A stretch of 64,000 nt of DNA. Source: Scytonema millei VB511283. Lineage in GTDB: Bacteria > Cyanobacteriota > Cyanobacteriia > Cyanobacteriales > Chroococcidiopsidaceae. The translations under genes and the position numbers were made by a program. Shown piece by piece: positions 39,337 through 55,199 of this stretch. Every line of letters starts with the position of its first letter. The first letter of the stretch is position 1. The stretch is from assembly GCF_000817735.3 (NCBI RefSeq), contig NZ_JTJC03000002.1:752242-816241 (forward strand), given 5' to 3'. The notes below the pieces were generated by a model, which saw only the letters and a list, made by a program, of their open reading frames with translations, did no database searches and was not told the origin of the DNA.

Positions 39337-40626
39337 TTACGCCTGAGCATCTAGCGGTAGCAATACGCGAAAGCTGCTACCAGCACCTAATCTACTGCTA
39401 ACTTTTATTTCACCTTTATGCTGTTGGACGATCGCTTGAGCGATCGCTAGCCCTAAGCCTAAGCCATCTTTTTCAGATTTAGCAGTATCGGCTCGCCAAA
39501 AGCGCTGGAAAATGAGTGGTAGCGAATCCGGTGGAATACCAATTCCCGTATCTTCGATCCGAATCACGGCAAATCGTTGCTCTCGTTCCAAAAATAGCGC
39601 TACTCTTCCCCCTTCTGTGGTGTATTTGAGAGCGTTATCTAGAAGGTTAGAAAATAGGCGGCTGAGTTTATGGCTGTCGCCTTTCACGACTATACCAGTA
39701 CGTAAATGCGGGGTGAACTGAATTTGCTTGTTTTGAGCTTGTGGTTCAAAGCGCTCAACTAAATCTTGCAGTAACTCTTCTAAAGGAATTGATGCAAAGT
39801 TAAAATCGCGATCGAGGCGATCGCTATCAATATTAGCTCTGGATAGAAATAGTAAATCTTCTACTAAATGAATGATTTGCTCGTTGGCGCGATCGATAAT
39901 TGCTAACTTTCTCACCTGAGCCGGACTTAACTCTTCTGGACTATTACGTAATAAATCTACTGTAGTACCAATCGCGGTTAGGGGATTGCGTAGTTCGTGC
40001 GCTACATCTCCGGTAAAGTGTTTTAATCGCCTTAAGTTACGTTGCATTGGTTGAAGAGTGAGCCAAGTTAAACCAATCCCGCTAATGCTACTTAATAGTA
40101 ATACTGTGACTCCTCCCACAATCAGACCTGAGCGTAGTTGCTCTAACTTCCACAGCAAATCTTGAGTAGACTCGCTAGCGCGAATATATCCTTCTAAGCG
40201 TAAGGTAGTTTTATCTCGATCTTCGGTATAAACAGCAATAGAAAAAGTCCGAACTTGTCCTTGTTGCTGTAGGATTGGAAACCCCTCTTGTAAACCATCA
40301 GCTAAGGCTTGCGACAATGACGAATTAGCAAAAAATTTTCCCTCTTTTGCTAAGAGCTTACCTTTAGGATTAAACCATTCGAGGCTTTGATTGTGGCGAA
40401 ATAACTCTTGCCAAGGAAGTTCATCATCTAATCTTTGAATTCCTCGACTTTTGATAATTCGCAAACTAGGAATAGCAGCTTCAGCCAAAATTTCTAAGCG
40501 ATCGTTTAATTGTTGTTCTAGACTACGGCTAAAAAAGATATAAATAGCTGTACTAGACGCGCCAAATATAGCAGACATTACTAATAAATAAGTTAGTAAA
40601 AATAACCAGCGTAATGATTGAAACAT
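39337..40626 (-). CDS. Sensor histidine kinase (RppB-like)
   Basis: A 429-residue membrane kinase. Two transmembrane helices (about 8-31 and 166-190) frame a periplasmic sensor of about 130 residues. The HisKA box has His210 in DVAHELRNPLTAI. The ATPase domain has LFSNLLDNALKYT (N box), IEDTGIGIPP (G1) and GLGLGLAIAQAI (G2). The sensor resembles RppB of the cyanobacterial RppA/RppB redox or nickel-responsive pair. Its likely partner regulator lies 4.6 kb away (45233), beyond the carbonic anhydrase, PcxA and bestrophin genes. A closely related paralogue is at 57091-58383. Confidence 0.92.
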   Translation of the reverse strand: MFQSLRWLFLLTYLLVMSAIFGASSTAIYIFFSRSLEQQLNDRLEILAEAAIPSLRIIKSRGIQRLDDELPWQELFRHNQSLEWFNPKGKLLAKEGKFFANSSLSQALADGLQEGFPILQQQGQVRTFSIAVYTEDRDKTTLRLEGYIRASESTQDLLWKLEQLRSGLIVGGVTVLLLSSISGIGLTWLTLQPMQRNLRRLKHFTGDVAHELRNPLTAIGTTVDLLRNSPEELSPAQVRKLAIIDRANEQIIHLVEDLLFLSRANIDSDRLDRDFNFASIPLEELLQDLVERFEPQAQNKQIQFTPHLRTGIVVKGDSHKLSRLFSNLLDNALKYTTEGGRVALFLEREQRFAVIRIEDTGIGIPPDSLPLIFQRFWRADTAKSEKDGLGLGLAIAQAIVQQHKGEIKVSSRLGAGSSFRVLLPLDAQA

Positions 40627-41251
40627 TGAATATTTACACTGCTCTCAACTCAATTGAATATCGCTCTCAAGTTTCTGAAAAATGAGATGCGATACGCTTC
40701 AGTTCAACTCGAATCGTACATGAGAATAGTGCAAAAAAAGTAATAAAGTAGCGACTTCAATCTTAAATTACAATCGTGAACTTAACATGAAGATTGCATG
40801 AGAAAACTCTCATGTTTTGAGAGCAAGGCTTCATATTGGTCATTGGTCATTGGTCATTTGTAAGTTCTTCCCTACTCCCTACTCCCTACTCCCTACTCCC
40901 TAATAACTGGTCATTGGTCATTGGTGAGTAACTTACGACTTACGACTTACGACTTACGACTTACTAAGGTCATTGATAGTTCTTCAAATGAACTATGGCG
41001 TAAACGAGAAGGTGAGATGTCAGAACGCTGAGGTACTTGCCTTGGTTCAAATGTCGTGTCTGTAAAGTATACAGGACGAGAAGAACTCAACTAGCGAGAT
41101 TCTCTGCTTGGCGAGATAGAGCGCTATTTCACCGATTCTCAACTTTGTCTCAACTTTGTCACTTTTTTATTCCAGGTTTATTACATTTATTGGTTTAACT
41201 TATGACATGCATAAGCAAATTCCTAAGTCAAACCACGAAAGAGGTAATCCC
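40627..41251. repeat. 625-bp divergent region with several STRR arrays
   Basis: Between the kinase (-) and the carbonic anhydrase (+) lie TTGGTCA units (40838-40860), CTACTCC units (40868-40903) and CTTACGA units (40932-40963). The stretch 40980-41250 shows no array or credible gene and should hold promoters for both directions. The open frame from 41156 into the carbonic anhydrase lacks a ribosome site. Confidence 0.8.
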
Positions 41252-41935
41252 ATGAGCAACATCTTCTCTATCAAAAGCGATCGCATCCAGCAGTCTGCTA
41301 ACGTTCACGCTAATGTGCTGGCATCCTTCAATCAAGAGCAAAGTTCGCCAAAAATTGACTTTAGCGCTTACATTCATCCCTTAGCTGCGGTAATTGGTAA
41401 CGTTTATCTCGGCAAGCGAGTCATGGTAGCTCCCGCAGCATCAGTACGAGGCGATGAAGGACAACCAATCTGGGTAGGAGATGATGTCAACGTACAAGAT
41501 TGCGTAGTGCTTCATGCTTTAGAAACTCACGTTAATGGCGAAATGGTGCAAGAGGCTGTAGTAGAAGTTGAAGGTAACTTCTATGGAGTATACATCAGCG
41601 ATCGCGTTTCTCTGGCGCATCAATGTCAAGTCCACGGTCCAGCCAGCATTGGTACTGATACTTTTGTCGGAATGCAATCTTTAGTATTTCGAGCCACAGT
41701 CGGCAATAACTGCGTTATCGAACCCAAAGCTTTAGTCATGGGAGTTAATATCGCCGATGGCAGATACGTCCCCGCAGGTTCTCTGATTACGACACAAGAA
41801 GCTGCTGACGATTTACCTTTAATTACCAACGAATATCCCCTCAGATTCCTCAATCAAGCTGTGGTTCACGTCAACACGCAGCTAGCCACTGGTTATCAAG
41901 GCATTGGTACTGACGAGCAATTGAAAGCAGCATAA
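41252..41935 (+). CDS. Gamma-class carbonic anhydrase, CcmM-like (stand-alone)
   Basis: A 227-residue left-handed beta-helix protein. It matches the N-terminal carbonic-anhydrase domain of the carboxysome protein CcmM: IHPLAAVIGNVYLG, ASVRGDEGQPIWVGDDVNVQD, the metal histidines in VVLHALETH and SLAHQCQVHGP, and the C-terminal VVHVNTQLATGYQG. The RubisCO small-subunit-like repeats of full CcmM are absent. GAGG stands seven bases before ATG 41252; the upstream in-frame extension has no support. It could interconvert CO2 and bicarbonate, either free in the cytoplasm or docked to carboxysomes. The downstream neighbours PcxA and bestrophin fit an inorganic-carbon role. Confidence 0.92.
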   Translation: MSNIFSIKSDRIQQSANVHANVLASFNQEQSSPKIDFSAYIHPLAAVIGNVYLGKRVMVAPAASVRGDEGQPIWVGDDVNVQDCVVLHALETHVNGEMVQEAVVEVEGNFYGVYISDRVSLAHQCQVHGPASIGTDTFVGMQSLVFRATVGNNCVIEPKALVMGVNIADGRYVPAGSLITTQEAADDLPLITNEYPLRFLNQAVVHVNTQLATGYQGIGTDEQLKAA

Positions 41936-41937
41936 TT

Positions 41938-42012
<75 letters not shown>

Positions 42013-42036
42013 CATTACTACCCAGAGAAATTCACC

Positions 42037-42288
42037 ATGACACCCAAACTGAAATTAGTTACCACCAACGGTCAAACAGCATCGCGTCAACCACTGTCTA
42101 TGGCTGTTGGCATTCCCAATCAAAAACATATTCCTGCTGGAGCAATAATTACTAACCAGTCGGATGTCGAGAATTTACCTGCTGTGACTCAGAGTCACCG
42201 CTATCAAAATAGCTACCGTCAAATTAATTCCTGTCAAAACAACTTCTGTCAAAAGAACAAACACCCTTTGTTGAAACTTGTTGCCTAG
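42037..42288 (+). CDS. Short CcmM-like fragment (83 residues)
   Basis: Residues about 22-50 (AVGIPNQKHIPAGAIITNQ then DVENLPAVT) match the last helix turns of the carbonic-anhydrase domain (MGVNIADGRYVPAGSLITTQ in the neighbour). The rest of the beta-helix is missing, and the tail is a Cys/Asn/Gln-rich stretch (RYQNSYRQINSCQNNFCQK). It may be a remnant of a duplicated carbonic anhydrase gene or a small protein that pairs with the enzyme. The upstream CAGAGAAATTCACC offers a weak ribosome site. It is on the same strand and close to its neighbours. Confidence 0.6.
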   Translation: MTPKLKLVTTNGQTASRQPLSMAVGIPNQKHIPAGAIITNQSDVENLPAVTQSHRYQNSYRQINSCQNNFCQKNKHPLLKLVA

Positions 42289-42321
42289 TTACCCTGCAAG
42301 TATGGAGAGGAGGACTGAGGG

Positions 42322-42684
42322 ATGAGTATGCACTGTCCCGAACAGTTACGATCCTTGACGAGTAGCATACTGATGACATTACTACGCAACCAAGACATCG
42401 TTTGCCCCACGGTCACATTTATTACACGAGTTCCCATCCCAGCCGTACTCATTGGCATCCAAAAGCAGTGGTCGATCGCCTATAAAAAAGTTTCAGGTAA
42501 CAGCGATCGCCTCACGCAGAATTTAGTCCAAAATGCACTCCAAATACCCCAGTTGCAGCATGACTTCTACCTTCTTCAACAAATCCACAGACCCCCTTTC
42601 TCAACTCAAAGGAAAAATCTTTGGTACGCCAGAGCGATCGCTAGAACAAGCTTATCAAGCCGCGCTGAGCATAAAATCGATTGA
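42322..42684 (+). CDS. Uncertain ORF with strong ribosome site, overlapping pcxA
   Basis: A 120-codon frame preceded by GGAGAGGAGGA, the strongest ribosome site in this cluster. The sequence matches nothing I know. The first 75 codons precede pcxA and look protein-like (helical, no repeats). The last 40 overlap the conserved N-terminus of pcxA in another frame. It may be a real small gene, or its ribosome site may serve a leader that couples translation to pcxA, which itself has no visible ribosome site. Confidence 0.4.
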   Translation: MSMHCPEQLRSLTSSILMTLLRNQDIVCPTVTFITRVPIPAVLIGIQKQWSIAYKKVSGNSDRLTQNLVQNALQIPQLQHDFYLLQQIHRPPFSTQRKNLWYARAIARTSLSSRAEHKID

Positions 42685-43882
42685 AGACCGATATTTTCAT
42701 GGTGGTAAAGTAACTGTATCAACCGCTAACGATGCTCAAATTCCTACTAGCGTGCAATCTGAGTTTGAGAAGCATTTAAGTATACTCAAACAGCAAATGA
42801 AGGAGTTTAATACGAGCAGTTCTACGCAGGGAAATTTGGGACAAGACCACCTGATGCGACTCTTTTTTACCGAAGGAACTCTGACGAAATACACTCTCGA
42901 ACCTCAATCATCGGCGGCGTTAGTACCCTTTTCAACTAATCTACCAACCAATAGTTCATCTCAGCTACCCACTCCACCAATTCAAGTCATTGAGGTGAAA
43001 CAAGCGATCGCCCCAGAAAAAACAAGAGCGAGGCAACTTCACCGCAAGAATTCTAGAAATTCAGCTCCAGAAAATGCCGAACCGCAAGTCAAAGCTGGAG
43101 TTCTACCGCGTTCTCTTGAGCGCACAATTAATAAAATCAAGAACGAGCTTGACCCAAATGCAGAAGCAGAAGTTGTCAAATCATTTCGGCGATCGCAAAA
43201 AAAGACTGTCGTTGCCATTAGGTTACTGGCATTGTTGATTTTGATTCCTTTAATAACTCAGCAAGTGTCCAAACTTTATTTGGTGCAACCAATTGTCGAT
43301 CGCGTGCGAGACGAAGCAGTTACGCCAGTCTTCTTAAACTCTGAAATGAAAGAAGAGGCGCTCAAAGAACTGCAAACCTTTGAAGAAGAACTCAAGCTAG
43401 AACGTTTGATGGGTGCAGCACCTGCCCTAACTTCAGAAGCAATTGAAGAGAAAGTCAAAGATAAAGCAACTGAAATTTCTCAGGAATTTCGTCATCGTAG
43501 CAATAACGCTGTTAGTAATGTTTTTGCTGATATCATCGCTGTTTTATCTTTTGCTTTAGTGTTACTATGGCGACGTAAAGATATTATGATGCTCAAGTCA
43601 TTCATGGATAATATTGTGACTGGCTTGAGTGATAGTGCTAAGGCTTTTTCAATTATTCTGATTACCGATATCTTTGTCGGGTTTCACTCTCCTCATGGTT
43701 GGGAAGTTTTGTTAGAAGGGCTATCTAGTCATTTAGGAATTGCAGCAAATCGCGGTGTAATCTTTCTATTTATCGCCACAGTTCCGGTCATTCTCGCCAC
43801 AATTTTTAAGTATTGGGTTTTCCGTTCCCTCAGCCGGATGTCACCATCAACGGTAGCGACTTTGAAAGAGATGAACGATTAA
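42560..43882 (+). CDS. pcxA: Proton extrusion protein PcxA (CemA/CotA family)
   Basis: A 440-residue membrane protein. The N-terminal part (TPERSLEQAYQAALSIKSIE) and the C-terminal CemA domain match PcxA: four transmembrane helices (near TVVAIRLLALLILIPLI, VFADIIAVLSFALVLLW, AFSIILITDIFVGFHS and GVIFLFIATVPVILATIF) and the signature GFHSPHGWEVLLEG. PcxA drives light-dependent proton release at the plasma membrane and is tied to CO2 and Na+-dependent inorganic-carbon uptake; its chloroplast counterpart is CemA. The start is either 42560 or the ATG nine codons upstream. It lies 48 bases before the bestrophin gene and after the carbonic anhydrase. Confidence 0.92.
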   Translation: MTSTFFNKSTDPLSQLKGKIFGTPERSLEQAYQAALSIKSIEDRYFHGGKVTVSTANDAQIPTSVQSEFEKHLSILKQQMKEFNTSSSTQGNLGQDHLMRLFFTEGTLTKYTLEPQSSAALVPFSTNLPTNSSSQLPTPPIQVIEVKQAIAPEKTRARQLHRKNSRNSAPENAEPQVKAGVLPRSLERTINKIKNELDPNAEAEVVKSFRRSQKKTVVAIRLLALLILIPLITQQVSKLYLVQPIVDRVRDEAVTPVFLNSEMKEEALKELQTFEEELKLERLMGAAPALTSEAIEEKVKDKATEISQEFRHRSNNAVSNVFADIIAVLSFALVLLWRRKDIMMLKSFMDNIVTGLSDSAKAFSIILITDIFVGFHSPHGWEVLLEGLSSHLGIAANRGVIFLFIATVPVILATIFKYWVFRSLSRMSPSTVATLKEMND

Positions 43883-43930
43883 ATTTGTGTCATTGCTGCT
43901 AGAAAATGCTCGTAGAATGAGGTTGAGTTG

Positions 43931-45022
43931 ATGATTTTTCCCATCAGTAAAAAAGCTCGCAGTCGCCAAAATCGATCGCCAAAAGTTTCTGTTTCCGGCA
44001 AGCGATCGCAGTCATATCACCGTAAATTAGTCGCATCGCGATCGTTTCGCGAAAAGTTCCAAATTTATACCGGAGAACAATTACACTGGTTGCAAGTTAC
44101 TCAGCGACTTTTATTCTCTATCATTCATGGAATTCTGCCTTGGGCGATCGCGTGTGGAAGCTACGGCTTACTAATTTCTGTACTGGATCATTATGGAAAG
44201 CTGCCTGCTTTCTTTGGTGACAGTAAAATCATTCAAAATGTCGTTATTAGTTTTAACGTCATTCTCAGCCTACTACTGGTGTTTCGCACCAACACAGCTC
44301 ACGAACGCTTTTGGGAAGGACGCAAACTATGGGGTTCAATGGTAAATACTACGCGCAACTTAGCGCGAGGAATTTCGATTACAATTGAACAACGAGAACC
44401 GCAGGAGCGAGACGAAAAAAGTGCTGCTGTCTATCTAGTTGCTGCCTTTGCTGTGGCGATGAAAATCCATCTACGGCGAGAACCAATGAATTCAGAATTG
44501 GAGCCGATGATGCCACCGTTGCAATATCATCAACTGCAAAATGTCAATCACGCTCCCTTAGAAATTGCTTATTGGATTGGAGATTATTTGCAACATCAAT
44601 TCGAGCGCCAACGCCTAAACATTTTTCAGCTGACATCCTTGCACGAACTATTAGATGATATGGTAGACATCTTAGGTGGCTGCGAACGCATTCTAAAAAC
44701 CCCCGTTCCCTTGGTATATACCGTTACTCTCAATGCTTTGCTGTGGATTTATTTCCTGCTTTTACCTTTTCAGCTAGTTGGTGGTATCAAGTGGTGGACA
44801 GCACCGATCCTTGCCTTTATGAGTTTTCTCTACTTAGGTATCAATGAAGTAGGGGCAGAAATTGAAGAACCTTTCGGTCGCGATGCCAATGACTTGCCCT
44901 TAGATGCAATCTGCGCCACAATTGTTCGTAACCTCGAACATATCATCCAATTTGCCCCCTGCGCCCGCGTGCTGCGCCCTGCTAGTGGTAACGTTCTCGA
45001 TTTACCCCGAAAAACTGCTTGA
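43931..45022 (+). CDS. Bestrophin-family anion channel
   Basis: A 363-residue membrane protein of the bestrophin (UPF0187) family, with about four hydrophobic helices. Conserved points include FRTNTAHERFWEGRKLWG (the bestrophin core), YTVTLNALLWIYFLLLPFQLVG and EIEEPFGRDANDLPLD near the end, with the acidic EEPFG-DxNDLP segment typical of the family. Members conduct Cl- or HCO3-; in algae they are part of the carbon-concentrating system. The ATG at 43931 follows GAGG by eight bases; a TTG one codon upstream is less likely. The arrangement after carbonic anhydrase and PcxA suggests bicarbonate or counter-ion flow, which is inference. Confidence 0.9.
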   Translation: MIFPISKKARSRQNRSPKVSVSGKRSQSYHRKLVASRSFREKFQIYTGEQLHWLQVTQRLLFSIIHGILPWAIACGSYGLLISVLDHYGKLPAFFGDSKIIQNVVISFNVILSLLLVFRTNTAHERFWEGRKLWGSMVNTTRNLARGISITIEQREPQERDEKSAAVYLVAAFAVAMKIHLRREPMNSELEPMMPPLQYHQLQNVNHAPLEIAYWIGDYLQHQFERQRLNIFQLTSLHELLDDMVDILGGCERILKTPVPLVYTVTLNALLWIYFLLLPFQLVGGIKWWTAPILAFMSFLYLGINEVGAEIEEPFGRDANDLPLDAICATIVRNLEHIIQFAPCARVLRPASGNVLDLPRKTA

Positions 45023-45232
45023 ATCGTGCCGATATCTAACATTTTGTCTTTCAGTGTAAGTTTTTGACAATTAAGTTCAGTTTTCATTACCTCTGGTCGC
45101 AGCAATTACCTGTACCATGAACTAGTCCGAGAATTAGTCTGAGCAAAGAATTAGTTCGAGCGATCGCCATCTAACAACCTTCTGAGAAGTAGGTTCACCC
45201 TTGCTAACCTGTTTTTGGAATGACATACCATC

Positions 45233-45910
45233 ATGAGATTGTTACTAGTCGAAGACGATAAACTCATCAATCAGTTACTTGCAGAAGCACTCAGCAACCA
45301 ACATTACGTCGTTGATGTTGCCGCTGATGGTCACGCTGGTTGGGATTTTGTCAAGTCTTTTGATTACGACTTAGTTCTGATTGATGTCATGCTGCCTAAA
45401 ATGGATGGCATTAGCCTTTGTCGCCAGCTGCGGACTCAAGGCTACCAAATGCCAGTCTTAATGTTAACAGCCAGAGATGCAACCGAAGATCGCGTCAATG
45501 GACTTGATGCGGGTGCAGATGACTACGTGATTAAACCATACAAACTGCAAGAATTATCGGCACGTATCCGCGCTTTATTACGCCGAGGTGGTTCGTCCCT
45601 ACCGCCAGCAATGAAATGTGGCAATTTATCTTTGGATGTAAACACGCGGGAAGTGACTTATAAGGGTTGTCCTCTCAGACTGACTCCAAAAGAGTATCGC
45701 TTACTAGAACTCTTCATGCGAAGTGGCTCTAAGGTTCTCAGTCGTAGTGCAATTTTAGAAAATCTTTGGTCTTTCGACGAACCACCGGATGAAGATGCAG
45801 TCAAAGCTTTAGTCAAACGTTTGCGTCAAAAGCTCAAATTAGCAGGTTCGCCAGGAGATCCGATTGAAACCGCTTACGGTGTAGGTTATCGCCTCAAGCA
45901 AGACCCGTAA
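45233..45910 (+). CDS. OmpR-family response regulator (RppA-like)
   Basis: A 225-residue regulator. The receiver domain (1-115) has the acidic pair ED/D near residues 7-9, phospho-acceptor Asp51 in LVLIDVMLPK and Lys in YVIKPY. The winged-helix DNA-binding domain (about 125-222) has LTPKEYRLLELFMRSG and VKALVKRLRQKLK. It resembles RppA of the RppA/RppB pair. It is 210 bases after the bestrophin gene on the same strand, whereas the likely sensor kinase is at the other end of the module (39337) and a divergent paralogue at 57091. It may control the carbonic anhydrase-PcxA-bestrophin genes. Confidence 0.93.
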   Translation: MRLLLVEDDKLINQLLAEALSNQHYVVDVAADGHAGWDFVKSFDYDLVLIDVMLPKMDGISLCRQLRTQGYQMPVLMLTARDATEDRVNGLDAGADDYVIKPYKLQELSARIRALLRRGGSSLPPAMKCGNLSLDVNTREVTYKGCPLRLTPKEYRLLELFMRSGSKVLSRSAILENLWSFDEPPDEDAVKALVKRLRQKLKLAGSPGDPIETAYGVGYRLKQDP

Positions 45911-46144: not shown

Positions 46145-46292
46145 TTACATTTGTCCCGGCTTTGTCACCTTTTGTGGTTTATTTTATACACCAAGGTGCT
46201 AACGGCAGAAATTGAATGTCTTAAATGTATCCTCAACGCAGGGTAGTCAACAAATCCCAAGAGTTAAGAAAAACAGATTGCAGGAACAGGCA

Positions 46293-47510
46293 ATGAATAA
46301 CAGCATTCTTGAAAAATCAGTTGATGCCCTGCTAACTCGAAGAAGTGATGCCCCATTCATTCGAGATTTTACCCCCTCAAAGCAGGTTGAATTGTTTGAA
46401 ACCTTGAAGCAGTTGCGGTTTAACGGGCAACTGATTCTGACAAACTCCTGCGGTAGAAAATGGATTCTGCACGTTCACCGAGGTTTGATTATCTACGCGA
46501 CTGGTGGAGAACATCCAGTCAGGCGATGGAGACGGAATCTCGCCACACACTTACCTCAAATAGCGAGCGATCGCTTGCTATCAAACGAATCGTGGGAGAA
46601 TCAATTAGCCACAACTTCGATTGAAGGTTCTAGCGTCTGTTGGCAGTATCAGTTATTGACTTCATGGCTCGAACGGCAGCAGATAACTCCAGAACAAATG
46701 GCAAGAATTGCATGGTCGGTCATTATTGAAGTTTTGTTTGATGTGACTCAAGCAGTACAGGTTGCCTACGAACTCAAGCCGAGTAGCAGCAAGCTGACTC
46801 CCGTAGTTGCGATCGATGCCGCTCAAGCGATCGCCGAAGTCGAACGATTGTGGCAAGCTTGGCAAGCAAACAGACTCAATTATTCTCCCAACAGCGCTCC
46901 AGTTATTAAACAATCGGCAGAATTGCAACACGGCATCTCTGCTCCAGCTTATCAAGCCTTGAGCCAACTACTAGACGGACAACATACACTACGGGATATT
47001 GCCACTCAGATGCAGCGAGATGTCAACTCGGCACTGCGTTCTCTCCTGCCATATATTCAGTCAGGATTTGTGGAGTTGATTAATATTCCCGATCTTGCCG
47101 CTCCGGTTCTCTCATCACCTACACCTCATGAGACTCAAGCACCGTTGATTGCTTGTGTAGATGACAGTTCTTGGGTATGCCACATCATGGAAAAAGTGAT
47201 GACAACAGCTAACTATCGATTTGTTGGCGTAAATGATGCACTGCGGGCGATCGGAGTTTTGCTAGCCATCAAACCAGATCTAATCTTTCTCGATTTGATG
47301 ATGCCAAATATTAACGGATACGAACTTTGCAGCCGTCTGCGTCAGCTTTCTTGCTTCCAGCACACGCCAATTGTCATCCTCACTGGCAACGACGGCATTA
47401 TCGATCGCGTCAGAGCTAAAATTGTCGGTTCCTCAGATTTTCTGGGCAAACCCATCGATCCCGATCGAGTTCTAGGCGCAATTCACAAACATCTCAAACA
47501 TAGTGCATGA
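46293..47510 (+). CDS. PatA/PixG-like response regulator (PATAN + receiver)
   Basis: A 405-residue protein. A PATAN (DUF4388) domain spans about 25-265, and begins FETLKQLRFNGQLILTNSCG with a later winged-helix-like segment (QALSQLLDGQHTLRDIATQM). A C-terminal receiver (about 285-405) has Asp in DLIFLDLMMPN and Lys in SDFLGKPID. PixG/TaxP1 proteins open the phototaxis pix operons. The ATG at 46293 is chosen because AGGA stands seven bases upstream; a TTG start 27 codons earlier has no such site. It is the first gene of the pix-like cluster. Confidence 0.9.
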   Translation: MNNSILEKSVDALLTRRSDAPFIRDFTPSKQVELFETLKQLRFNGQLILTNSCGRKWILHVHRGLIIYATGGEHPVRRWRRNLATHLPQIASDRLLSNESWENQLATTSIEGSSVCWQYQLLTSWLERQQITPEQMARIAWSVIIEVLFDVTQAVQVAYELKPSSSKLTPVVAIDAAQAIAEVERLWQAWQANRLNYSPNSAPVIKQSAELQHGISAPAYQALSQLLDGQHTLRDIATQMQRDVNSALRSLLPYIQSGFVELINIPDLAAPVLSSPTPHETQAPLIACVDDSSWVCHIMEKVMTTANYRFVGVNDALRAIGVLLAIKPDLIFLDLMMPNINGYELCSRLRQLSCFQHTPIVILTGNDGIIDRVRAKIVGSSDFLGKPIDPDRVLGAIHKHLKHSA

Positions 47511-47590: not shown

Positions 47591-47623
47591 CAACAACCAA
47601 AAAATGCTTCTGTGAGGTTTTCC

Positions 47624-47914
47624 ATGAATACCAGAGCAAACACTAACAAAATTTGGCAAAGTTTAATACAGCCAACTCAACAAAGACTGGAATCTATTGA
47701 AATTCGTCGCCCGAAAACAGCTCGATTTGTCTGTCGTGTGATTCCAGCAAGTTGTCCCTTCGAGCGAGACATTCGATTTTTCGATCGCAGTCTGCTGCAC
47801 GTTCCACCCTTATGTAAGCTCAATCCTTTCTACGAGCAGTTGGTGTTGTTGCGAATGAAGAGTTTAACTTATCTGGCGCAAGCATGTAGCCAGGGAATGA
47901 AAAACTGTTGCTGA
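47624..47914 (+). CDS. Mo-dependent nitrogenase C-terminal-like protein
   Basis: A 96-residue protein with the domain named Mo-dependent nitrogenase C-terminus. The run VIPASCPFERDIRFFDRSLLHVPPLCKLNPFYEQLVLLRMKSLTYL (in parts) is its whole signature, with conserved Cys in CPFER and PPLCKL. The domain occurs in many cyanobacteria, including non-fixers, as small stand-alone proteins of unknown role; the name does not imply nitrogenase here. ATG 47624 follows GAGG by six bases; the GTG at 47612 is too close to that site. It is placed inside a phototaxis-type cluster between the pixG- and pixH-like genes. Confidence 0.85.
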   Translation: MNTRANTNKIWQSLIQPTQQRLESIEIRRPKTARFVCRVIPASCPFERDIRFFDRSLLHVPPLCKLNPFYEQLVLLRMKSLTYLAQACSQGMKNCC

Positions 47915-48025
47915 GTTTAGGGACAGGGAGCAGGGAGCAGGAAGCACAGAGCAGTTACTAATCGCTAGTCGCTCGTTGCGAATCGCTAACCGCTAATCGC
48001 TAATTGCCAATCTTTGGTGAATTCT

Positions 48026-48418
48026 ATGGATATTGCCCTCGTTGTAGAAGATTGTTTGACCGAGCGGGAAGCGATCGCCAGCTATTTGCAACAAGGCGGG
48101 ATCAGCGTCTTGGCTGCTAAGAGTGGGGAAGAAGCCCTGGAAAAAATGAGTGACTGCAAGCCTGACATCATTATTTTAGATGTTGTCTTGCCAGGTCGGA
48201 GTGGATTTGAACTCTGCCGTGCTTTAAAAGCTAACCCATCCACCAAAAACACCCCCGTTATCCTCTGTTCGAGAAAAGGGACTGACATGGATAAATTCTG
48301 GGGTTTAAAGCAAGGAGCAGACGCTTACTTACCAAAGCCTGTAGCGCCAGAGGAATTTATTCGCACTGTGAAGCAACTGCTATTAGTTTCACACGGTGAA
48401 ACAACTCTCATGGTTTGA
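48026..48418 (+). CDS. CheY-like response regulator (PixH type)
   Basis: A 130-residue single receiver domain. Acidic residues near position 8 (VVEDC), Asp in IIILDVVLPG and Lys in YLPKPV are present, so it can be phosphorylated. PixH is the soluble CheY of phototaxis systems, taking phosphate from PixL (CheA). ATG 48026 follows GGTG by six bases; the longer frame begins at an unsupported TTG. It is followed 25 bases later by the cheW. Confidence 0.92.
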   Translation: MDIALVVEDCLTEREAIASYLQQGGISVLAAKSGEEALEKMSDCKPDIIILDVVLPGRSGFELCRALKANPSTKNTPVILCSRKGTDMDKFWGLKQGADAYLPKPVAPEEFIRTVKQLLLVSHGETTLMV

Positions 48419-48443: not shown

Positions 48444-49019
48444 ATGGTATCCAAGTCACCAAAGTTAGACTCCCAGGAGGCATCACCAGAAAGAGTAACT
48501 TTCACCGATGCTGACGAGCAATTTCTCCGCTTTTACCTCGAACCAGACACAGCAGCCTTGCTTCCCGTGACTCAGTTGCTAGAAATCTTGAAGCTATCTG
48601 CGGAACAGATCGTCCCGATCCCGCACATGCCAAGTTGGGTTATGGGAGTTTACAACTGGCGGGGTGAAATTCTCTGGATGGTCGATTTAGCTGAATTAGT
48701 CGGACTGACTGCTGGCGATCGCTACCAAACCAGCAACGTTCCAACTTATACAGCAGTTGTCTTGCAAGCTAACCTCTGCGATCGCCTACCCGCACCGACA
48801 GCAGAAACCCAAACAATCGGTTTAGTCATAGAGCAAATTGACGACATCGAATGGTGCAATCCAGACACAATCCAACCGCCGCCATTTACTGCTGTTTCCA
48901 CTCCTTTCGCTCCCTTCGTGCGCGGATATAAGTTAAGCGGCGATAGCGAAATGACAGCAATTTTATCGGTCAAAGCGATCGCGGCTGCTGTCAGTTATCA
49001 GTTGTCAGTTAACAGTTAA
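48444..49019 (+). CDS. CheW-like adaptor (PixI type) with repeat-encoded end
   Basis: A 191-residue CheW-domain protein (about 20-180). The barrel core reads VTQLLEILKLSAEQIVPIPHMPSWVMGVYNWRGEILWMVDLAEL (in parts), the typical CheW/PixI pattern. CheW links the methyl-accepting receptor to the CheA kinase. The last residues (VSYQLSVNS) and the stop codon are read from TCAGTTA repeat DNA, so the original C-terminus has been replaced or capped by STRR. Position between PixH- and PixJ-like genes fits PixI. Confidence 0.92.
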   Translation: MVSKSPKLDSQEASPERVTFTDADEQFLRFYLEPDTAALLPVTQLLEILKLSAEQIVPIPHMPSWVMGVYNWRGEILWMVDLAELVGLTAGDRYQTSNVPTYTAVVLQANLCDRLPAPTAETQTIGLVIEQIDDIEWCNPDTIQPPPFTAVSTPFAPFVRGYKLSGDSEMTAILSVKAIAAAVSYQLSVNS

Positions 49020-49161: not shown

Positions 49162-52005
49162 ATGTCGCAGTCAACTCTCAAGTTCGATCCGCCAAACCCC
49201 GATCGCGATCGCATCTCGCCTCAGTGGGAGCGAGTTTCGGCAGTAGCGCCGGATTCAACTGCAATGCCGAGCCAATCGCCATCAATACAGAAAAACGTAC
49301 CTTGGCAATCTTCACTATCTAGGGGTCTGCGTTTCTGGAAAGGTTTGAGTTTGCAACATAAAGCCACAATTTTGGCGATCGCGATCGGTGCTATTCCAGT
49401 GGCAACTGTTGGCGGCGTTGCCTATACCATAGCCAATAATTCTCTAGAGCAGCAAATTATTGCCGAGCAGGAAAACCGCACGCTTGATGTTCGGCGCGGC
49501 ATTGGCATGGCAACGCAGCAAATCATCGATGATGCAGAGACAATTAGTAATTCTCCCATATTGGCAAATTCTAAGCTGAGGGCAGTGGCGACTGAAGGGC
49601 AGAAAGTTGCGCTGTTAGATAGCTTTGTTGAGGCACGTAGCGGTAGATATGACAGTATCGTCGCGTTCGACCTCAAAGGAAATTTAATCTTTCAATCTAA
49701 GTCAACACAGCCGTTTAAGCGTACGGAAAACTATAGCGATCGCGAATATTTTCGACGGGCGATCGCGACTGGAACTCCCGCAGTGAACAATCCTAAAGTT
49801 GCGCCTACCTCCGGCAAAATTAGTTTAGAAGTTGCAGCTCCAATTAAAGATATAGAAACAAATAAGCTCGTAGGAGTTGTTCGCTTGCGGATGCCGTTGA
49901 CTCATCTGAATGAAACCTTTGAGTATATCGAAGCACAAGGATGGGAATACAAGCTGATCGGCGCTGACGGAAATGTGTTTGCGGCTGATGAAATTGGGCT
50001 AGTTGGACATTACATGGGAGAAGATTTTCGCGATCTGCCGCAGTTGCGTGCCAAGGTTTTAGCCCTTGCCTCTACAGATCGACCCAAACATGAAGACAAG
50101 TTAATTTCAACTCAAGTCGCGTGGGACAAAAACGATGGTGAGAATGCACTGATGAGCTTCACGCCGATCGGGAAATTGGATGGACTGCCAGAACCAGGTT
50201 GGGGATTGGTGGTTTCTCGTCCGGTCGATCGCGCCTTTGCACCTTTACTAGAACTACGCCGAGTTCTCTGGTTGGGAACTGGAGTAGCCGCCCTATCGAT
50301 CGCCGCGATCGCCGCAGTCTTAGCTAAGCGAGCGACTCGCCCAATTCTAAATGCTGCTAGGGCTGTAGCTCAAATTGGTTTAGGCAAGTTAGAGACTCGC
50401 TTGGCAGTTCGTGGCACGGCTGAAATAGCTGTTTTAGAAACTAGCATCAACAGCATGGCGAAGCAGTTAGAGGAACTCGTGCAGCTCAAAGCAGCAGAAG
50501 CTCGGCGATCGCAATTGCTCAAAGATATTACCGTGAAGATTGGTAGCGTTATCGACTGCCCAGCTATTCTCAACACTGCTGTAGCCGAGACCCGCAGCGC
50601 TTTGCTAACCGACCGCGCGATTGTCTACTGGTTTGATGGCGATCGCAATGGTAACGTCGTTGTCGAAGCAGCCAGCGCGGGTATAACTCGCATACTGGGT
50701 AAAAATATCGAAAACTATGCCTTAGAGCAATACGCACAGTACCAAAAAGGACAAGTCGAGGTAATTTCTCATATACGATCGGCAGATACGAGCGATGAGT
50801 ACTGGCAACGACTGACAGCACTTGCCGTCAAATCCAGTCTAGCCGCACCAATTTTGCTCGGCGATCGCTGTGTGGGTTTACTTGTCGTCCATCAGTGTAA
50901 CGTTCCGCGTCACTGGCAGAAAGTAGAGGTTGATTTCTTTGCCCAGATTGCGACTCAAATAGGACTAGCGCTAGAGCGTGCCGATCTCTTAGAACAACAG
51001 AAAAATGCCAAAGAACAGTTGCAAAGACGAGCGTTGGATTTGCTGATTGAAGTCGATCCAATTAGTCAGGGCGACCTGACGATCCGTGCCAGAGTCACAG
51101 AAGATGAAATCGGTACGATCGCTGACTCCTATAATTCTACAGTCGAAAGCTTGCAAGAAATTGCCGTACAGGCACAAATAGCCGCCGATCGAGTCGATGC
51201 AGCAATTAACAGTAACGAGCCGTTAATTCAAGCCCTCTCGCAAGGAGCTTGGCAGCAATCAACAGAAATTGTCACTGCTTTGGAACGGATTCAAGCGATG
51301 GCTGATTCTGCCCATACTGTTGCCGATAACGCCAAACGCGCAGAGGTAGACGTGCGCCAAGCGATGGAGATCGTCGCATCTGGCGACATGGCGATGGATC
51401 GAGCCGTGGATGGAATGCTGACAATTCGGGGAACCGTTGCCGAAACCGTCAAGAAGATCAAATGTTTGGGAGAGTCATCGCAAAAGATTTATAAAGTGGT
51501 AAATTTGATCGCTCACTTTGCCGAGCGGACTAGCTTGCTCGCCATGAATGCTTCCATTGAAGCAGCGCGAGCTGGAGAAGAAGGACGCGGCTTTGCGGCT
51601 GTTGCCGATGAAGTGCGATCGCTAGCCCGACAATCAGCCAAAGCAACGGCAGAAATTGAAAAGCTCGTCTCGGGAATTCAACGGGAAACCAATGAAGTTG
51701 CTACAGCAATGGCAATCGGCACGGAACAGGTAGCGGTTGGGACTCAACTCGTCAACGATACCCGCCAGAGTTTAAACCACATTACCACCGCTAGCGATCG
51801 CATTCATCAACTCGTAGGAGCAATTGCCCAAGCTGCGATCGAGCAATCTCAAGACTCAGAAGCAGCCACGACAACCATTGCCACAGTCGCCGCGATCGCC
51901 GAAACTACATCCCTAACTGCAACCGAAGTCTCCGCTTCCTTCCAACAATTATCAACCGTAGCGCGATCGCTCCAAGCTAGCGTCGGACAATTCAAAGTGG
52001 AATGA
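49162..52005 (+). CDS. Methyl-accepting receptor (PixJ-like) with dCache, HAMP, GAF and signalling domains
   Basis: A 947-residue receptor. A transmembrane helix at about 71-92 precedes a large extracellular dCache-like sensor (about 95-365) and a second helix (about 374-394). Next come HAMP (about 395-445), a GAF domain (about 460-620), a second HAMP-like linker and the MCP signalling domain (about 740-947) with VADEVRSLARQSAKATAEIE. The GAF resembles bilin-binding PixJ GAFs (LVVHQCNVPRHWQKVEVDFF) but has no Cys where the chromophore is attached (TALAVKSSLAAPI region). A small-molecule or unattached-ligand sensor is therefore likely. The ATG follows GAGG by eight bases. Confidence 0.92.
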   Translation: MSQSTLKFDPPNPDRDRISPQWERVSAVAPDSTAMPSQSPSIQKNVPWQSSLSRGLRFWKGLSLQHKATILAIAIGAIPVATVGGVAYTIANNSLEQQIIAEQENRTLDVRRGIGMATQQIIDDAETISNSPILANSKLRAVATEGQKVALLDSFVEARSGRYDSIVAFDLKGNLIFQSKSTQPFKRTENYSDREYFRRAIATGTPAVNNPKVAPTSGKISLEVAAPIKDIETNKLVGVVRLRMPLTHLNETFEYIEAQGWEYKLIGADGNVFAADEIGLVGHYMGEDFRDLPQLRAKVLALASTDRPKHEDKLISTQVAWDKNDGENALMSFTPIGKLDGLPEPGWGLVVSRPVDRAFAPLLELRRVLWLGTGVAALSIAAIAAVLAKRATRPILNAARAVAQIGLGKLETRLAVRGTAEIAVLETSINSMAKQLEELVQLKAAEARRSQLLKDITVKIGSVIDCPAILNTAVAETRSALLTDRAIVYWFDGDRNGNVVVEAASAGITRILGKNIENYALEQYAQYQKGQVEVISHIRSADTSDEYWQRLTALAVKSSLAAPILLGDRCVGLLVVHQCNVPRHWQKVEVDFFAQIATQIGLALERADLLEQQKNAKEQLQRRALDLLIEVDPISQGDLTIRARVTEDEIGTIADSYNSTVESLQEIAVQAQIAADRVDAAINSNEPLIQALSQGAWQQSTEIVTALERIQAMADSAHTVADNAKRAEVDVRQAMEIVASGDMAMDRAVDGMLTIRGTVAETVKKIKCLGESSQKIYKVVNLIAHFAERTSLLAMNASIEAARAGEEGRGFAAVADEVRSLARQSAKATAEIEKLVSGIQRETNEVATAMAIGTEQVAVGTQLVNDTRQSLNHITTASDRIHQLVGAIAQAAIEQSQDSEAATTTIATVAAIAETTSLTATEVSASFQQLSTVARSLQASVGQFKVE

Positions 52006-52103: not shown

Positions 52104-55100
52104 ATGCTAATTACTCCCGACATTCGCGACCAAGCTTACCGTCTGTTTATTGAAGAAGTGCCAGAGCTGTTACAGGAGATCGAAGCAGGCTTGCTCAGTC
52201 TGAAGCAAGAGCGCACGAACGAACGCATTCACGATCTGATGCGTGCAGCTCACTCTCTTAAAGGTGGTGCAGCTTGCTTGGATTTAGAGCCAATTAAAAT
52301 TATTGCCCACCGTTTAGAAGATGTTTTTCGGGCTTTGTATAACCGCTCCGTAGCAGTAGATTCAGAGTTAGAAGGTTTATTACTGCAAGCTTACGATTGT
52401 CTGCGCGTCCCCCTACTGCAACAAATTACTATCGGCAGCATTGACTGCGTGGCAACATTAGCAGTAGCCGAACCCATATTTAATCAAATAGAAGAACGTT
52501 TGGGAGATGCTTTAGCTCAGATCGATCGCTACATACCCATGTCCTCAGAACTCGGGGTCGATCTGGTAGCATCAATCTTTGAAACAGATGTCGTGCAAGG
52601 ACTGGAACGATTGGCGGCTGTGGTCGCCAACCCTCAAGATTTCGAGGTAGCTGGAGAATTACGAGCGCAGGCGGAAGTCTTTGCTGGATTTGCCGAGCTA
52701 TTAAATCTGCCAGGATTCGGGGCGATCGCCCAAACAGCCTTAACTGCACTAGACACCTATCCCAAGCGCGCCAGAGAAATTATTCAAGTCGCCTTAGCTG
52801 ATTTTCACAATAGCAGAACCGCCGTACTAGCAGGCGATCGCACGACTGGAGGAAATCCGTCTGCTGCCCTTTGTGCCTTAACAGAAAAGAGTGTCGATTT
52901 GGCTCCTAGCCCAGAACCACAATTCTCGCCTTTACTAGACGAGCTGTTATTTGGCGACGAGACAGTACCAATAGAAGCAGTGGCGATCGACCCTGGGATC
53001 GTTTTCGTCACTGAAACTGAAAATGATTCCAATGACGCGATCGAATCAGAAGCTCATTCCCTAACTATCTCCCCTGCGGCAAATTTATCGCCGATTCAGT
53101 CCTTATCCCACTCGACTGAAATTTCTCAAAGCAACATAGAGGGCGATCGCCCTAAAGTAGGAAGTATCAATTCTTACACTGAGGAACCACAAATAGCAAC
53201 TGCCGTTTCTACGCGGGTAGAACTAAGCCGATTAGAGCGGATGCACAAGTTATTGGGTGAATTAGTCGTCAATCGCAACTCCATTGCGCTGCAAACCGAG
53301 CAAACCCAAAACTCAGCTCAAGAGTTGCTCCGCCGTTTTGCTTACTTTCAAGAACTGATCGGTCAGCTAGAGAGGAGAACTGAGGCTGACGAGGGAGCAG
53401 GGAGCAGGGAGCAGAGGAGCAGAGGAGCAGGGGAGAACCAACTACCAACTACCAACTACCAACTACCACTTACAACTGACTTCGATCCTCTAGAAATGGA
53501 TCGCTATGGAGCGGTTCACCCTCTATTACAAAGAATTCTAGAAGAAATTGTCCAATTGGAAGAGGCTGTAGAGGATATTGCTTTATTTGCCGAGCAATCG
53601 AGCCAAATATTAGAGCGGAAACAACAAGTTTTCTCCCAACTCCAAGATGAATTAATGCGAGCGCGAATGCTCCCTTTGGGTGAAGTTCTCAAGCGTTTCT
53701 CTCGGATGCTGCGGGATATGTCTCATACCTATTCCAAGCCTGTCAATTTGAAGCTGAGAGGGACAGAGGTACAGGTAGAAAAGGCAATTTTGGAAAAGCT
53801 CTACGACCCGCTGTTACATTTACTCCGCAATGCCTTTGCTCATGGCATTGAATCGCCTGAGATCCGCCGACAGCAAGGTAAGCCGGAAAACGGAGAAATT
53901 CTAATTTGTGCTTATTACAAAGGCAATCAAACAATTATTGAAGTTAGAGATGACGGTCGGGGTCTAAACCTGGGGCAAATTCGCAGCCGGATTGTAGAGT
54001 TGGGTTGGTTATCGCCAATCGAAGCAGCCAGTGCTTCTAAAGAGCAGTTACTAGAATTTATCTTCGAGCCAGGATTTTCTACCACTCACCACGTTAGCGA
54101 ACTTTCCGGTCGTGGCATGGGTTTGGATGTTGTCCGTTCCCAACTGCGATCGCTGCGCGGTTCTGTAAGCGTCAGTTCCTTCCCTGGTGAGGGTACGACT
54201 TTTACTTTACGCTTGCCTCTCACGTTGACGATCGCGAATTTGGTTGTTTGCTCTACGGGGAAAACTACTGTAGCATTGCCATCTGACAGCATTGAAAATA
54301 TCGTCACTACGCCAAGCGATCGCATCAACCGCACGGGGACTCAGCAGCTATTGCGCTGGAGAGAACACATCATACCGATCCATCGGTTGGCAGACCTTTT
54401 AGAATACAACCGTCCAATGTTAGAAGTTGCTAAGTTAGACGTTGCTAATAGCCAATCTCTAATTACAACTACGATGGAAGAAAAGGAGTTGCCAATGCTT
54501 CTACTACGTTGGGAGGGCGAATTATTGGCGCTAGAAGTCGATTGCTTGTTGGCAGAACAAGAACTAGCAATTAAACCTTTTGGATCGCTCGTTTCGCCTC
54601 CCAATTATACCTATGGCTGCACTCTACTAGGAAACGGTAGTTTAGTTCCTGTAATTAATGGATCCAGCCTTTTAGAATATGTCATAGAACGGCAACAAAG
54701 TACAGTTCAAGCAACTGAAAATCAATCAAAAGATAAAGAACAAAACATCAATATTTTGTGGCGCGATCGAACAGCAATTGTTCATAAAACCGAAAGTCAT
54801 ACAATTTTAGTTGTAGACGACTCAACTACGATGCGCCAAACACTGACACTATCGTTGCAAAAGGCTGGCTATCGGGTTTTATCAGCACGGGATGGATTAG
54901 AAGCACTAGAAAAATTACAGCAATCTCCCACGGTACAATTAGTACTTTGCGATATTGAAATGCCGAATATGAACGGCTTTGAATTTCTCTGTCAGTGGCG
55001 ACAAGAGCCGCAATTTGCCAAAATTCCCGTGGCTATGCTGACATCACGCAGTAACGACAAACATCGCCGTTTAGCAACTCAATTGGGTGCTAGCGCCTAC

Positions 55101-55199
55101 TTCACCAAACCGTATATAGAACTTGAGTTTTTGCAAGCCCTCAAGAATATTTTCGAGCAGAACGTAGAAGAACAAACGACTTTGCAGCATATTGCCTAG
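52104..55199 (+). CDS. Hybrid CheA histidine kinase (PixL-like)
   Basis: A 1031-residue hybrid kinase. An Hpt domain has His50 in AAHSLKGGA. A dimerisation segment (VELSRLERMHKLLGELVVNRN) leads to the ATPase domain with LLHLLRNAFAHGIE, EVRDDGRGLNL and SGRGMGLDVV. A CheW domain follows, and a receiver near the C-terminus has its Asp in LVLCDIEMPN and Lys in YFTKPY. This is the PixL layout of phototaxis systems. A loop in the kinase region carries STRR DNA (52392-53473 region; see repeat), giving GAGSREQRSRGAGEN. It closes the pix-like cluster and shares the strand with all its partners. Confidence 0.94.
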   Translation: MLITPDIRDQAYRLFIEEVPELLQEIEAGLLSLKQERTNERIHDLMRAAHSLKGGAACLDLEPIKIIAHRLEDVFRALYNRSVAVDSELEGLLLQAYDCLRVPLLQQITIGSIDCVATLAVAEPIFNQIEERLGDALAQIDRYIPMSSELGVDLVASIFETDVVQGLERLAAVVANPQDFEVAGELRAQAEVFAGFAELLNLPGFGAIAQTALTALDTYPKRAREIIQVALADFHNSRTAVLAGDRTTGGNPSAALCALTEKSVDLAPSPEPQFSPLLDELLFGDETVPIEAVAIDPGIVFVTETENDSNDAIESEAHSLTISPAANLSPIQSLSHSTEISQSNIEGDRPKVGSINSYTEEPQIATAVSTRVELSRLERMHKLLGELVVNRNSIALQTEQTQNSAQELLRRFAYFQELIGQLERRTEADEGAGSREQRSRGAGENQLPTTNYQLPLTTDFDPLEMDRYGAVHPLLQRILEEIVQLEEAVEDIALFAEQSSQILERKQQVFSQLQDELMRARMLPLGEVLKRFSRMLRDMSHTYSKPVNLKLRGTEVQVEKAILEKLYDPLLHLLRNAFAHGIESPEIRRQQGKPENGEILICAYYKGNQTIIEVRDDGRGLNLGQIRSRIVELGWLSPIEAASASKEQLLEFIFEPGFSTTHHVSELSGRGMGLDVVRSQLRSLRGSVSVSSFPGEGTTFTLRLPLTLTIANLVVCSTGKTTVALPSDSIENIVTTPSDRINRTGTQQLLRWREHIIPIHRLADLLEYNRPMLEVAKLDVANSQSLITTTMEEKELPMLLLRWEGELLALEVDCLLAEQELAIKPFGSLVSPPNYTYGCTLLGNGSLVPVINGSSLLEYVIERQQSTVQATENQSKDKEQNINILWRDRTAIVHKTESHTILVVDDSTTMRQTLTLSLQKAGYRVLSARDGLEALEKLQQSPTVQLVLCDIEMPNMNGFEFLCQWRQEPQFAKIPVAMLTSRSNDKHRRLATQLGASAYFTKPYIELEFLQALKNIFEQNVEEQTTLQHIA
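53392..53473. repeat. STRR insert inside cheA
   Basis: GGGAGCA units followed by four CCAACTA units are read in frame (GAGSREQRSRGAGENQLP and TTNYQLPLTT) in a loop between the dimerisation helices and the ATPase domain of the kinase. Confidence 0.9.

Follow-up and report, generated by a model that had tools for sequence, protein, structure and literature searches.

A putative two-component regulon joining a Cam-type carbonic anhydrase, PcxA, a bestrophin and chemosensory genes in Scytonema millei

Introduction

As a rule the cytosol of cyanobacteria is without carbonic anhydrase (CA) activity, as passages of PMC10154277 state; CA acting freely there would deplete the bicarbonate pool. In passages of a second source, PMC10096703, CcmM is given as the carboxysomal gamma-CA of cyanobacteria; the passages covered contain neither a Cam-type enzyme nor the word Methanosarcina, and the bestrophin passage concerns Chlamydomonas, where BST1-3 are presumed to carry HCO3- within a carbon-concentrating system. 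The locus described here shares features with these systems and differs from each of them. It lies in a stretch of 64,000 nt of Scytonema millei VB511283 (assembly GCF_000817735.3, contig NZ_JTJC03000002.1, positions 752,242-816,241; "the window" below), in which a first-pass annotation made from the sequence alone had proposed that a CA, a short CA-like protein, PcxA, a bestrophin and a two-component pair form one system. Open reading frame and Pfam/NCBIfam checks found all six open frames of this set (39337-45910) at the positions given for them. Our results support the idea of one system, and we estimate at about 60% the probability that a two-component regulon jointly controls the CA, PcxA, the bestrophin, a small PF06967 protein and, in the window, a chemosensory array.

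Results

The CA gene (227 aa; 41252..41935, + strand, ATG at 41252) is followed on the same strand by genes for a short protein (42037..42288, ATG 42037), a PcxA/CemA paralog (42533..43882, ATG 42533 or 42560), a bestrophin (43928..45022, TTG 43928 or ATG 43931) and an OmpR-family response regulator (45233..45910, REC and Trans_reg_C domains); the sensor histidine kinase HK1 (39337..40626, HisKA and HATPase domains) is encoded to the left on the - strand. Below, genomes carry G numbers (G000 is that of the window, G001 and G002 belong to the same genus) and loci L numbers. We compared 28 non-redundant cyanobacterial CA loci, the window counted in. In 17 of them, called type A, the CA stands with PcxA, bestrophin, regulator and kinase, and in ten, called type B, with chemosensory genes; the Tolypothrix locus L041 has a mixed layout, CA, PF06967 and bestrophin with Che genes after them. 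It must be noted that locus and genome counts are not independent, because many loci are near copies and the genomes are related.

A lack of neighbourhood conservation had been named beforehand as an outcome that would speak against a single system. All or most of the set was found to recur across distant genera (Gloeocapsopsis, Aliterella, Calothrix, Dulcicalothrix, Plectonema, Richelia, Cyanomargarita and UBA11371), and since its members stand side by side again, in rearranged order, in several families, the gene set is not a chance assembly. In the stretch examined per locus a bestrophin was present in 17, PcxA in 16 and PATAN in 14 of the 28 CA loci, the last count including L095, whose PATAN gene lies 4.7 kb away on the opposite strand. 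Among type A loci the tally was 16/17 for PcxA, 16/17 for the bestrophin and 15/17 for regulator plus kinase, which were not seen on the short contigs of L042 and L088; L049 has only the regulator and the kinase. The PF06967 protein occurs in 26/28 loci (absent from L049 and L095, partial or diverged in L035, L091 and L097). This family is common, being present in 79/80 relatives, mostly in 1-5 copies and in 9-13 copies in the window's genus, a density at which a random copy would seldom land in a 20-kb stretch. Within the window's family (19 genomes), all seven CA-bearing genomes have a second, module-type PcxA, and no such gene shows up, judged from copy number and score, in the 12 CA-less genomes, of which G006 and G015 are the only ones placed in the tree. 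Among the eight f19 type B genomes the module PcxA lies elsewhere in seven (none was detected in L198, which lies close to the end of its contig), and in four (L195, L196, L200, L202) a bestrophin adjoins it.

The second line of evidence is a tandem TTTGTC repeat with an 11- or 22-base period upstream of the genes. In the window a predicted operator of the form TTTGTC-N5-TTTGTC is found at 41144..41160 (+), 108 bp upstream of the CA start. We scored a box when a pair of TTTGTC hexamers, spaced by 5 or 16 bases and deviating at no more than one of the twelve positions, lay no farther than 350 bp from the CA. By this rule it precedes the CA in 17/17 type A loci (12 exact), compared with 0.10 expected from dinucleotide shuffles. 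The comparison overstates the surprise, because most of these sequences had themselves served to find the motif and several of the loci are near copies of one another. Among the type B loci and L041 the box was seen in 2/11, and two-mismatch forms, whose chance rate was not measured, in 7 more.

Tests on genes other than the CA relied on sequences that were not used in finding the motif, the status of a gene as head of a unit or as lying behind another gene being assigned from gene order and strand. In CA genomes, PATAN genes heading their own unit have the box in 4/4 cases (the window, L032 and L033, of one genus, and L041), and those directly behind the CA in 0/9. The corresponding figures for PF06967 are 6/8 when it heads its own unit (8/8 at two mismatches, the box of L042 being shared with the divergent CA) and 0/6 when it lies behind other module genes. 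The box is also present before the separated PcxA of G500. In the controls no box was found: 0/24 upstream of 15 further PcxA and 9 further bestrophin genes, where some of the stretches were shorter than 350 bp, and 0/14 upstream of PATAN genes of CA-less genomes or of other PATAN copies (about 1 kb each). The 27 loci scanned (527 kb) contain 69 sites when overlapping and double-spacing ones are each counted, and 56 of these lie at most 450 bp upstream of a module gene. The co-regulation that had been proposed thus gains an independent sign in this conserved box. At about 450 bp upstream of the PcxA gene of G066 lies a box with one mismatch, and there is none before the PcxA-bestrophin pair of G041.

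Across the 5.97-Mb genome the exact N5 pattern was counted 6 times, against 3 for the reversed control. Two of the six are the box at 41144 and a second one at 46150..46166 (+), which precedes the chemosensory genes; both are kept in G001 (2 of 8 exact copies) and G002 (2 of 6). The four other copies of G000 are on contigs C1, C7, C12 and C13, those on C1, C7 and C12 inside open frames, and no module-like genes were recognised by eye beside them. An exact TTTGTC pair with the 22-base period also occurs at position 20065 of the window, outside the module. A scan of 39.2-58.6 kb gave 28 promoter-like elements (28.9 expected) and 8 terminator-like elements (18.9 expected).

The nearest named models to the regulator and HK1 are RppA and RppB, known from Synechocystis, as the first-pass annotation had recognised. 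The best NCBIfam matches are indeed RppA (NF041734, 227.6 bits) and RppB (NF041735, 253.1 bits), but both scores fall below the equivalog cut-offs of 250 and 400, respectively; the pair further differs from RppA/RppB in being split in this genus, in having a second kinase and in its other neighbours. In the three same-genus genomes kinase and regulator flank the CA-short gene-PcxA-bestrophin run. Outside the genus their orthologs are adjacent in 12/12 type A loci that have both (L035, L036, L038, L043-L049, L063, L086), with a gap of up to about 550 to 610 bp, in which small genes were not looked for. Regulator orthologs (61-70% identity) also stand beside kinases in 8/8 f19 type B genomes (L195-L202), with two kinases in seven and one in L202. 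Because of the adjacency in the outside type A loci we agree with the earlier view that the pair was opened up around the set, as far as this genus is concerned.

In our trees HK1 belongs to a starred clade of 12 rows (node value 97; 96 in the wider tree) that consists solely of kinases of CA loci, two of the others being from the same genus. The Gloeocapsopsis-type kinases (L035, L036, L038) lie outside this clade, near that of G006, in a wider starred set with G066 and with the second kinase of the window, HK2. HK2 (57091..58383, +; 46% identity to HK1; in the same place in G001 and G002) groups with type B kinases (94, not starred), and HK1 with those of type A. The regulators form a group (82) inside a starred 18-row set (96) that includes those of the CA-less G006, G041 and G066. 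A regulator ortholog of at least 64% identity was found in 16/18 CA-bearing genomes of the order (7/7 plus 9/11) and, among the matches listed, in 4/73 CA-less relatives (G006, G041, G066, G079); the 64% line was chosen after the data had been seen, and scoring was limited to the best candidates of a first look. In G623, the ninth type B genome, the regulator reaches just 58%. The kinase model (pLDDT 76.4, pTM 0.41) matched mostly other histidine kinases and photoreceptors among the 50 PDB matches listed. In L045 (6928-8095, Richelia sp. SL_2_1) the module kinase is in two frames, owing to a break or a sequencing error, and in L049 the kinase is without its N-terminal membrane part and the regulator match is short too.

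The PcxA protein has the full CemA domain of the PcxA/PxcA (CotA, CemA) proteins (PF03040, cut-off passed with 308.5 bits) and misses the cut-off of the NCBIfam PcxA model NF002703 (463.9 against 526 bits). It differs from them in adjoining a bestrophin and in forming a distinct clade beside a canonical copy, the genome holding another PcxA and two more bestrophins besides those of the module. The module PcxAs (15 rows) are in a starred set (99) with the PcxAs of the CA-less G041 and G066, apart from canonical PcxA, and in the wider tree the PcxAs of the f19 type B genomes join this clade (99, 24 rows). The bestrophin passes the cut-off of PF25539 (Bestrophin_2) with 280.5 bits, and 16/17 module bestrophins share a starred set (99) with four from G041 and G066, that of L088 lying outside. 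In the three same-genus genomes dN/dS was 0.015-0.19 for CA, PcxA, bestrophin, HK1, regulator and PF06967. At L098 in G041 a module-type PcxA and a bestrophin are adjacent, without CA and without box. Contig C3 of G002 (371 kb; L099, L121) combines on one replicon another PcxA, two bestrophins and pairs that resemble RppA/RppB.

The first-pass annotation had called the CA CcmM-type. This assignment is not borne out: the closest PDB match is Cam of Methanosarcina thermophila (E 3.8e-72), compared with 1e-38 for CcmM. With CcmM the enzyme has the gamma-CA domain in common, but its 227 aa contain only the hexapeptide/gamma-CA part without RbcS-like repeats, and its score against the CcmM model NF053794 is 178.9 bits with a cut-off of 550. 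The genome has a separate CcmM-like protein at G000:C3:614167 (567-aa open frame, 41% identity to the CA). We therefore rejected CcmM as the identity of the CA on the PDB and NCBIfam scores. We call the enzyme Cam-like rather than an equivalog, since it also misses the cut-off of the Cam model NF040597 (300.1 against 380 bits). Mapped on CA-Cam alignments, all ten catalytic or metal positions compared are kept (R59, D61, E62, Q75, D76, H81, E84, H117, H122 and N202, in a residue list and numbering that we take to be those of Cam). The enzyme differs from Cam in having F for W19 and H for Y200, in its PcxA and bestrophin neighbours and in showing no evident signal peptide: by eye none was evident in the N-terminus MSNIFSIKSD. 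A stand-alone cyanobacterial gamma-CA may go by the name CahG. Short tandem repeats of the CTACTCC, CTTACGA and GGAATTC types flank the CA gene (40865-40965 and 41940-41972).

The short protein had been labelled a CcmM fragment, and this label has to be replaced: it best matches the C-terminus of the Cam family (NF040597 positions 181-234, E 1e-7), compared with 1.1e-5 for the CcmM model. By tblastn, counterparts lie 3' of the CA in 12/17 type A loci, the window counted, and none was found in L046, L049, L086 and L088; the match is weak in L045, the copy of G014 (L036) has an in-frame stop, and there is one counterpart in the type B locus L087. Its dN/dS is uneven, 0.11-0.90 by close pair, with 2.5 for G001/G002 on a single synonymous change; with these values and the stop of G014, the short gene may or may not encode a functional subunit under constraint.

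The close CA is rare. It was found in 7/80 relatives, all other matches there being at most 47% identical, in 2/386 genomes phylum-wide at E 1e-70 and in 18/388 genomes of the order at E 1e-60, the window's genome being included each time. Further carriers among the matches listed are Gloeocapsopsis, Aliterella, Calothrix, Dulcicalothrix, Tolypothrix, Plectonema, Richelia, Cyanomargarita, Chlorogloeopsis and others. The nearest non-cyanobacterial CAs among the matches listed (14 loci, 55-63% identity) come from 13 deltaproteobacterial or Syntrophales-type metagenome-assembled genomes and one of Spirochaetes; beside them none of 11 query proteins of the window, from SMC to CheW, had a match, apart from the short protein, which hits the CA itself. 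The ten Cam positions are intact in the CAs of all 17 type A loci and of L041 (18/18) and in 14/14 non-cyanobacterial relatives, whereas 8/10 type B CAs are eroded, only L087 and L089 keeping all ten; six of the eight are without at least one metal-ligand histidine, and L092 and L097 align poorly in part. Thus the enzyme stays intact where the type A neighbours remain alongside. The Cam-type CAs of L090-L097, which stand before chemosensory genes and in which catalytic residues are lost, are apparent pseudoenzymes, and G466 has two near-identical copies of one eroded CA (L095, L096). The record of L040/L087, titled Candidatus Gracilibacteria SU_1_2, has the cyanobacterial module, and its title looks mislabelled.

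The unit is bigger than the set first noticed, its genes running on to 58383. The added members, all on the + strand, are a PATAN-REC protein (DUF4388 plus receiver, 46212..47510), the PF06967 small protein ('Mo-nitro_C', 47612..47914), a CheY-like receiver (48014..48418), CheW (48444..49019), a methyl-accepting protein (MCP; HAMP-GAF-MCP, 49162..52005), a CheA-REC hybrid kinase (52104..55199), a ClpX paralog (zf-C4_ClpX and AAA_2, 55699..56961) and HK2. For the PATAN gene ATG 46293 is the likelier start, the matches of G001 and G002 beginning at residue 17 and spanning a stop. The PF06967 protein scores 121.2 bits with a cut-off of 27, and its model (pLDDT 72.7) had no PDB match at E <=0.001. 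In the window's genus both halves form a single run (39.3-58.4 kb), with identical gene order in the three genomes. Type B loci have the CA directly before PATAN, PF06967, CheY, CheW, MCP and CheA, with a ClpX paralog in four; L092 ends early, and L095 has the MCP and no adjacent PATAN. Cyanobacterial PATAN-CheY-CheW-MCP-CheA arrays consist of the same gene types in one run, and the array of the window differs from them in the TTTGTC box in front of it and in its ties to the CA. Relatives of its PATAN gene, up to 57% identical, often occur where there is no CA. The ClpX paralog, present in 6/28 CA loci, recurs beside the module (55699-56961 in the window, L042:1974, L202:16340).

Discussion

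Co-inheritance of the genes, the conserved box and the conserved catalytic residues are established at the level of sequence. The scheme that we favour goes further, and its binding step, the location of the CA, the ion, the direction of flow and the trigger are our inference. Related membrane kinases, two in the window, would feed a single OmpR-type regulator, which would bind the predicted tandem TTTGTC boxes and switch the module genes on together. In the cytosol the CA would bring CO2 into equilibrium with HCO3- and H+, PcxA would export protons in the light and thereby pull CO2 hydration forward, and the bestrophin would pass Cl- or HCO3-, for charge balance or for venting surplus bicarbonate. 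Free entry of CO2 or an acidifying cytosol (rewetting, onset of light, high CO2) would turn the module on, and it would be off while the CO2-concentrating mechanism runs. Tight switching makes sense, because free cytosolic CA would leak the bicarbonate pool of that mechanism.

Several observations weigh against this regulon. In the stretch examined, 11/28 CA loci are without a bestrophin and 12/28 without PcxA. The regulator occurs without the CA in G006, G041, G066 and G079, and G041 and G066 also have module-clade PcxA and bestrophin without it. The box is weak or absent before most type B CAs, does not precede regulator or kinase in G006 and G066, and is mostly missing from the separate regulator-kinase-PcxA sets of type B genomes, where one site precedes the second kinase in L195 and L196. 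Finally, the best-scoring solved bestrophins are 4wd7/4wd8, which we take to be the Klebsiella cation-selective type.

The same genes could serve the opposite end. It is possible, if somewhat unlikely, that the set is an overflow or acid-stress valve that disposes of CO2, bicarbonate and acid under high CO2, in darkness or during fermentation, and has no part in carbon gain. Such a valve is in keeping with the harm that free CA in the cytosol should do to the concentrating mechanism and with the conditional use implied by the box and the regulator; no result separates it from the direction that we favour. A different location is assumed if the bestrophin feeds HCO3- into the thylakoid lumen, with the CA near that membrane and PcxA setting the proton balance. 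The Chlamydomonas proteins BST1-3 offer a precedent, being described in passages of PMC10096703 as potential thylakoid bicarbonate transporters; they are eukaryotic, and the window's module adds PcxA and two-component control. The window CA starts with MSNIFSIKSD without an evident signal peptide and is therefore unlikely to be in the lumen, which makes us doubt this version. CAH3, the partner CA of BST1-3, is in the lumen.

RppA and NrsR sense metal or redox state, and the regulator might do the same, with CA, PcxA and bestrophin as incidental stress targets. The best NCBIfam matches are consistent with this, but both proteins score below the equivalog cut-offs and no metal exporter is among the families recurring in at least four CA loci, so we think it improbable. 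We are equally hesitant about the CA as the carbon-sensing end of a chemosensory circuit, that is, a CO2/HCO3--binding gamma-CA coupled to the PATAN-Che array and to the shared kinase-regulator regulon; where PcxA and bestrophin lie elsewhere it would have given up its active site and remain as a pseudoenzyme receptor or scaffold, and the complete form in the window would both act on and sense inorganic carbon. Plain synteny without function would account for the identical order in the three same-genus genomes, but order and strand vary between lineages while membership and box persist, which leaves it hardly credible.

Among the titles and abstract starts listed, none describes this gene set or its boxes. 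The families are known, and their combination with the boxes amounts to a putative inorganic-carbon/pH regulon built from known parts; the linkage to the same sensor-regulator pair and repeat suggests an undescribed joint handling of CO2, bicarbonate and pH. If the regulon that we favour exists, the rule of a CA-free cytosol would have an exception that can be switched, namely a regulated, apparently cytosolic CA with intact active site that is tied to a bestrophin and to the export of protons. In that case the bestrophin would have a testable prokaryotic partner system, and the RppA-like regulator would gain a predicted operator and regulon.

The genus of the window is presumably Chroococcidiopsis. 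In passages of PMC10154277, photosynthesis of C. thermalis was inhibited strongly by EZ and weakly by AZ, from which an important internal CA was inferred, and it was less inhibited by DIDS than that of Synechococcus. These results are compatible with the proposed role of a cytosolic CA, and the regulon, if real, might explain the apparent reliance of C. thermalis on internal CA and the weaker effect of DIDS reported in those passages.

Exact TTTGTC boxes also stand before a gene pair that by eye resembles FHA-type and phytochrome-type genes and before another gene that looks PATAN-like (L178:1926, Dulcicalothrix; L179:1751, Calothrix PCC 7103; L180:1983, Cyanomargarita), thus the regulon may reach light sensing.

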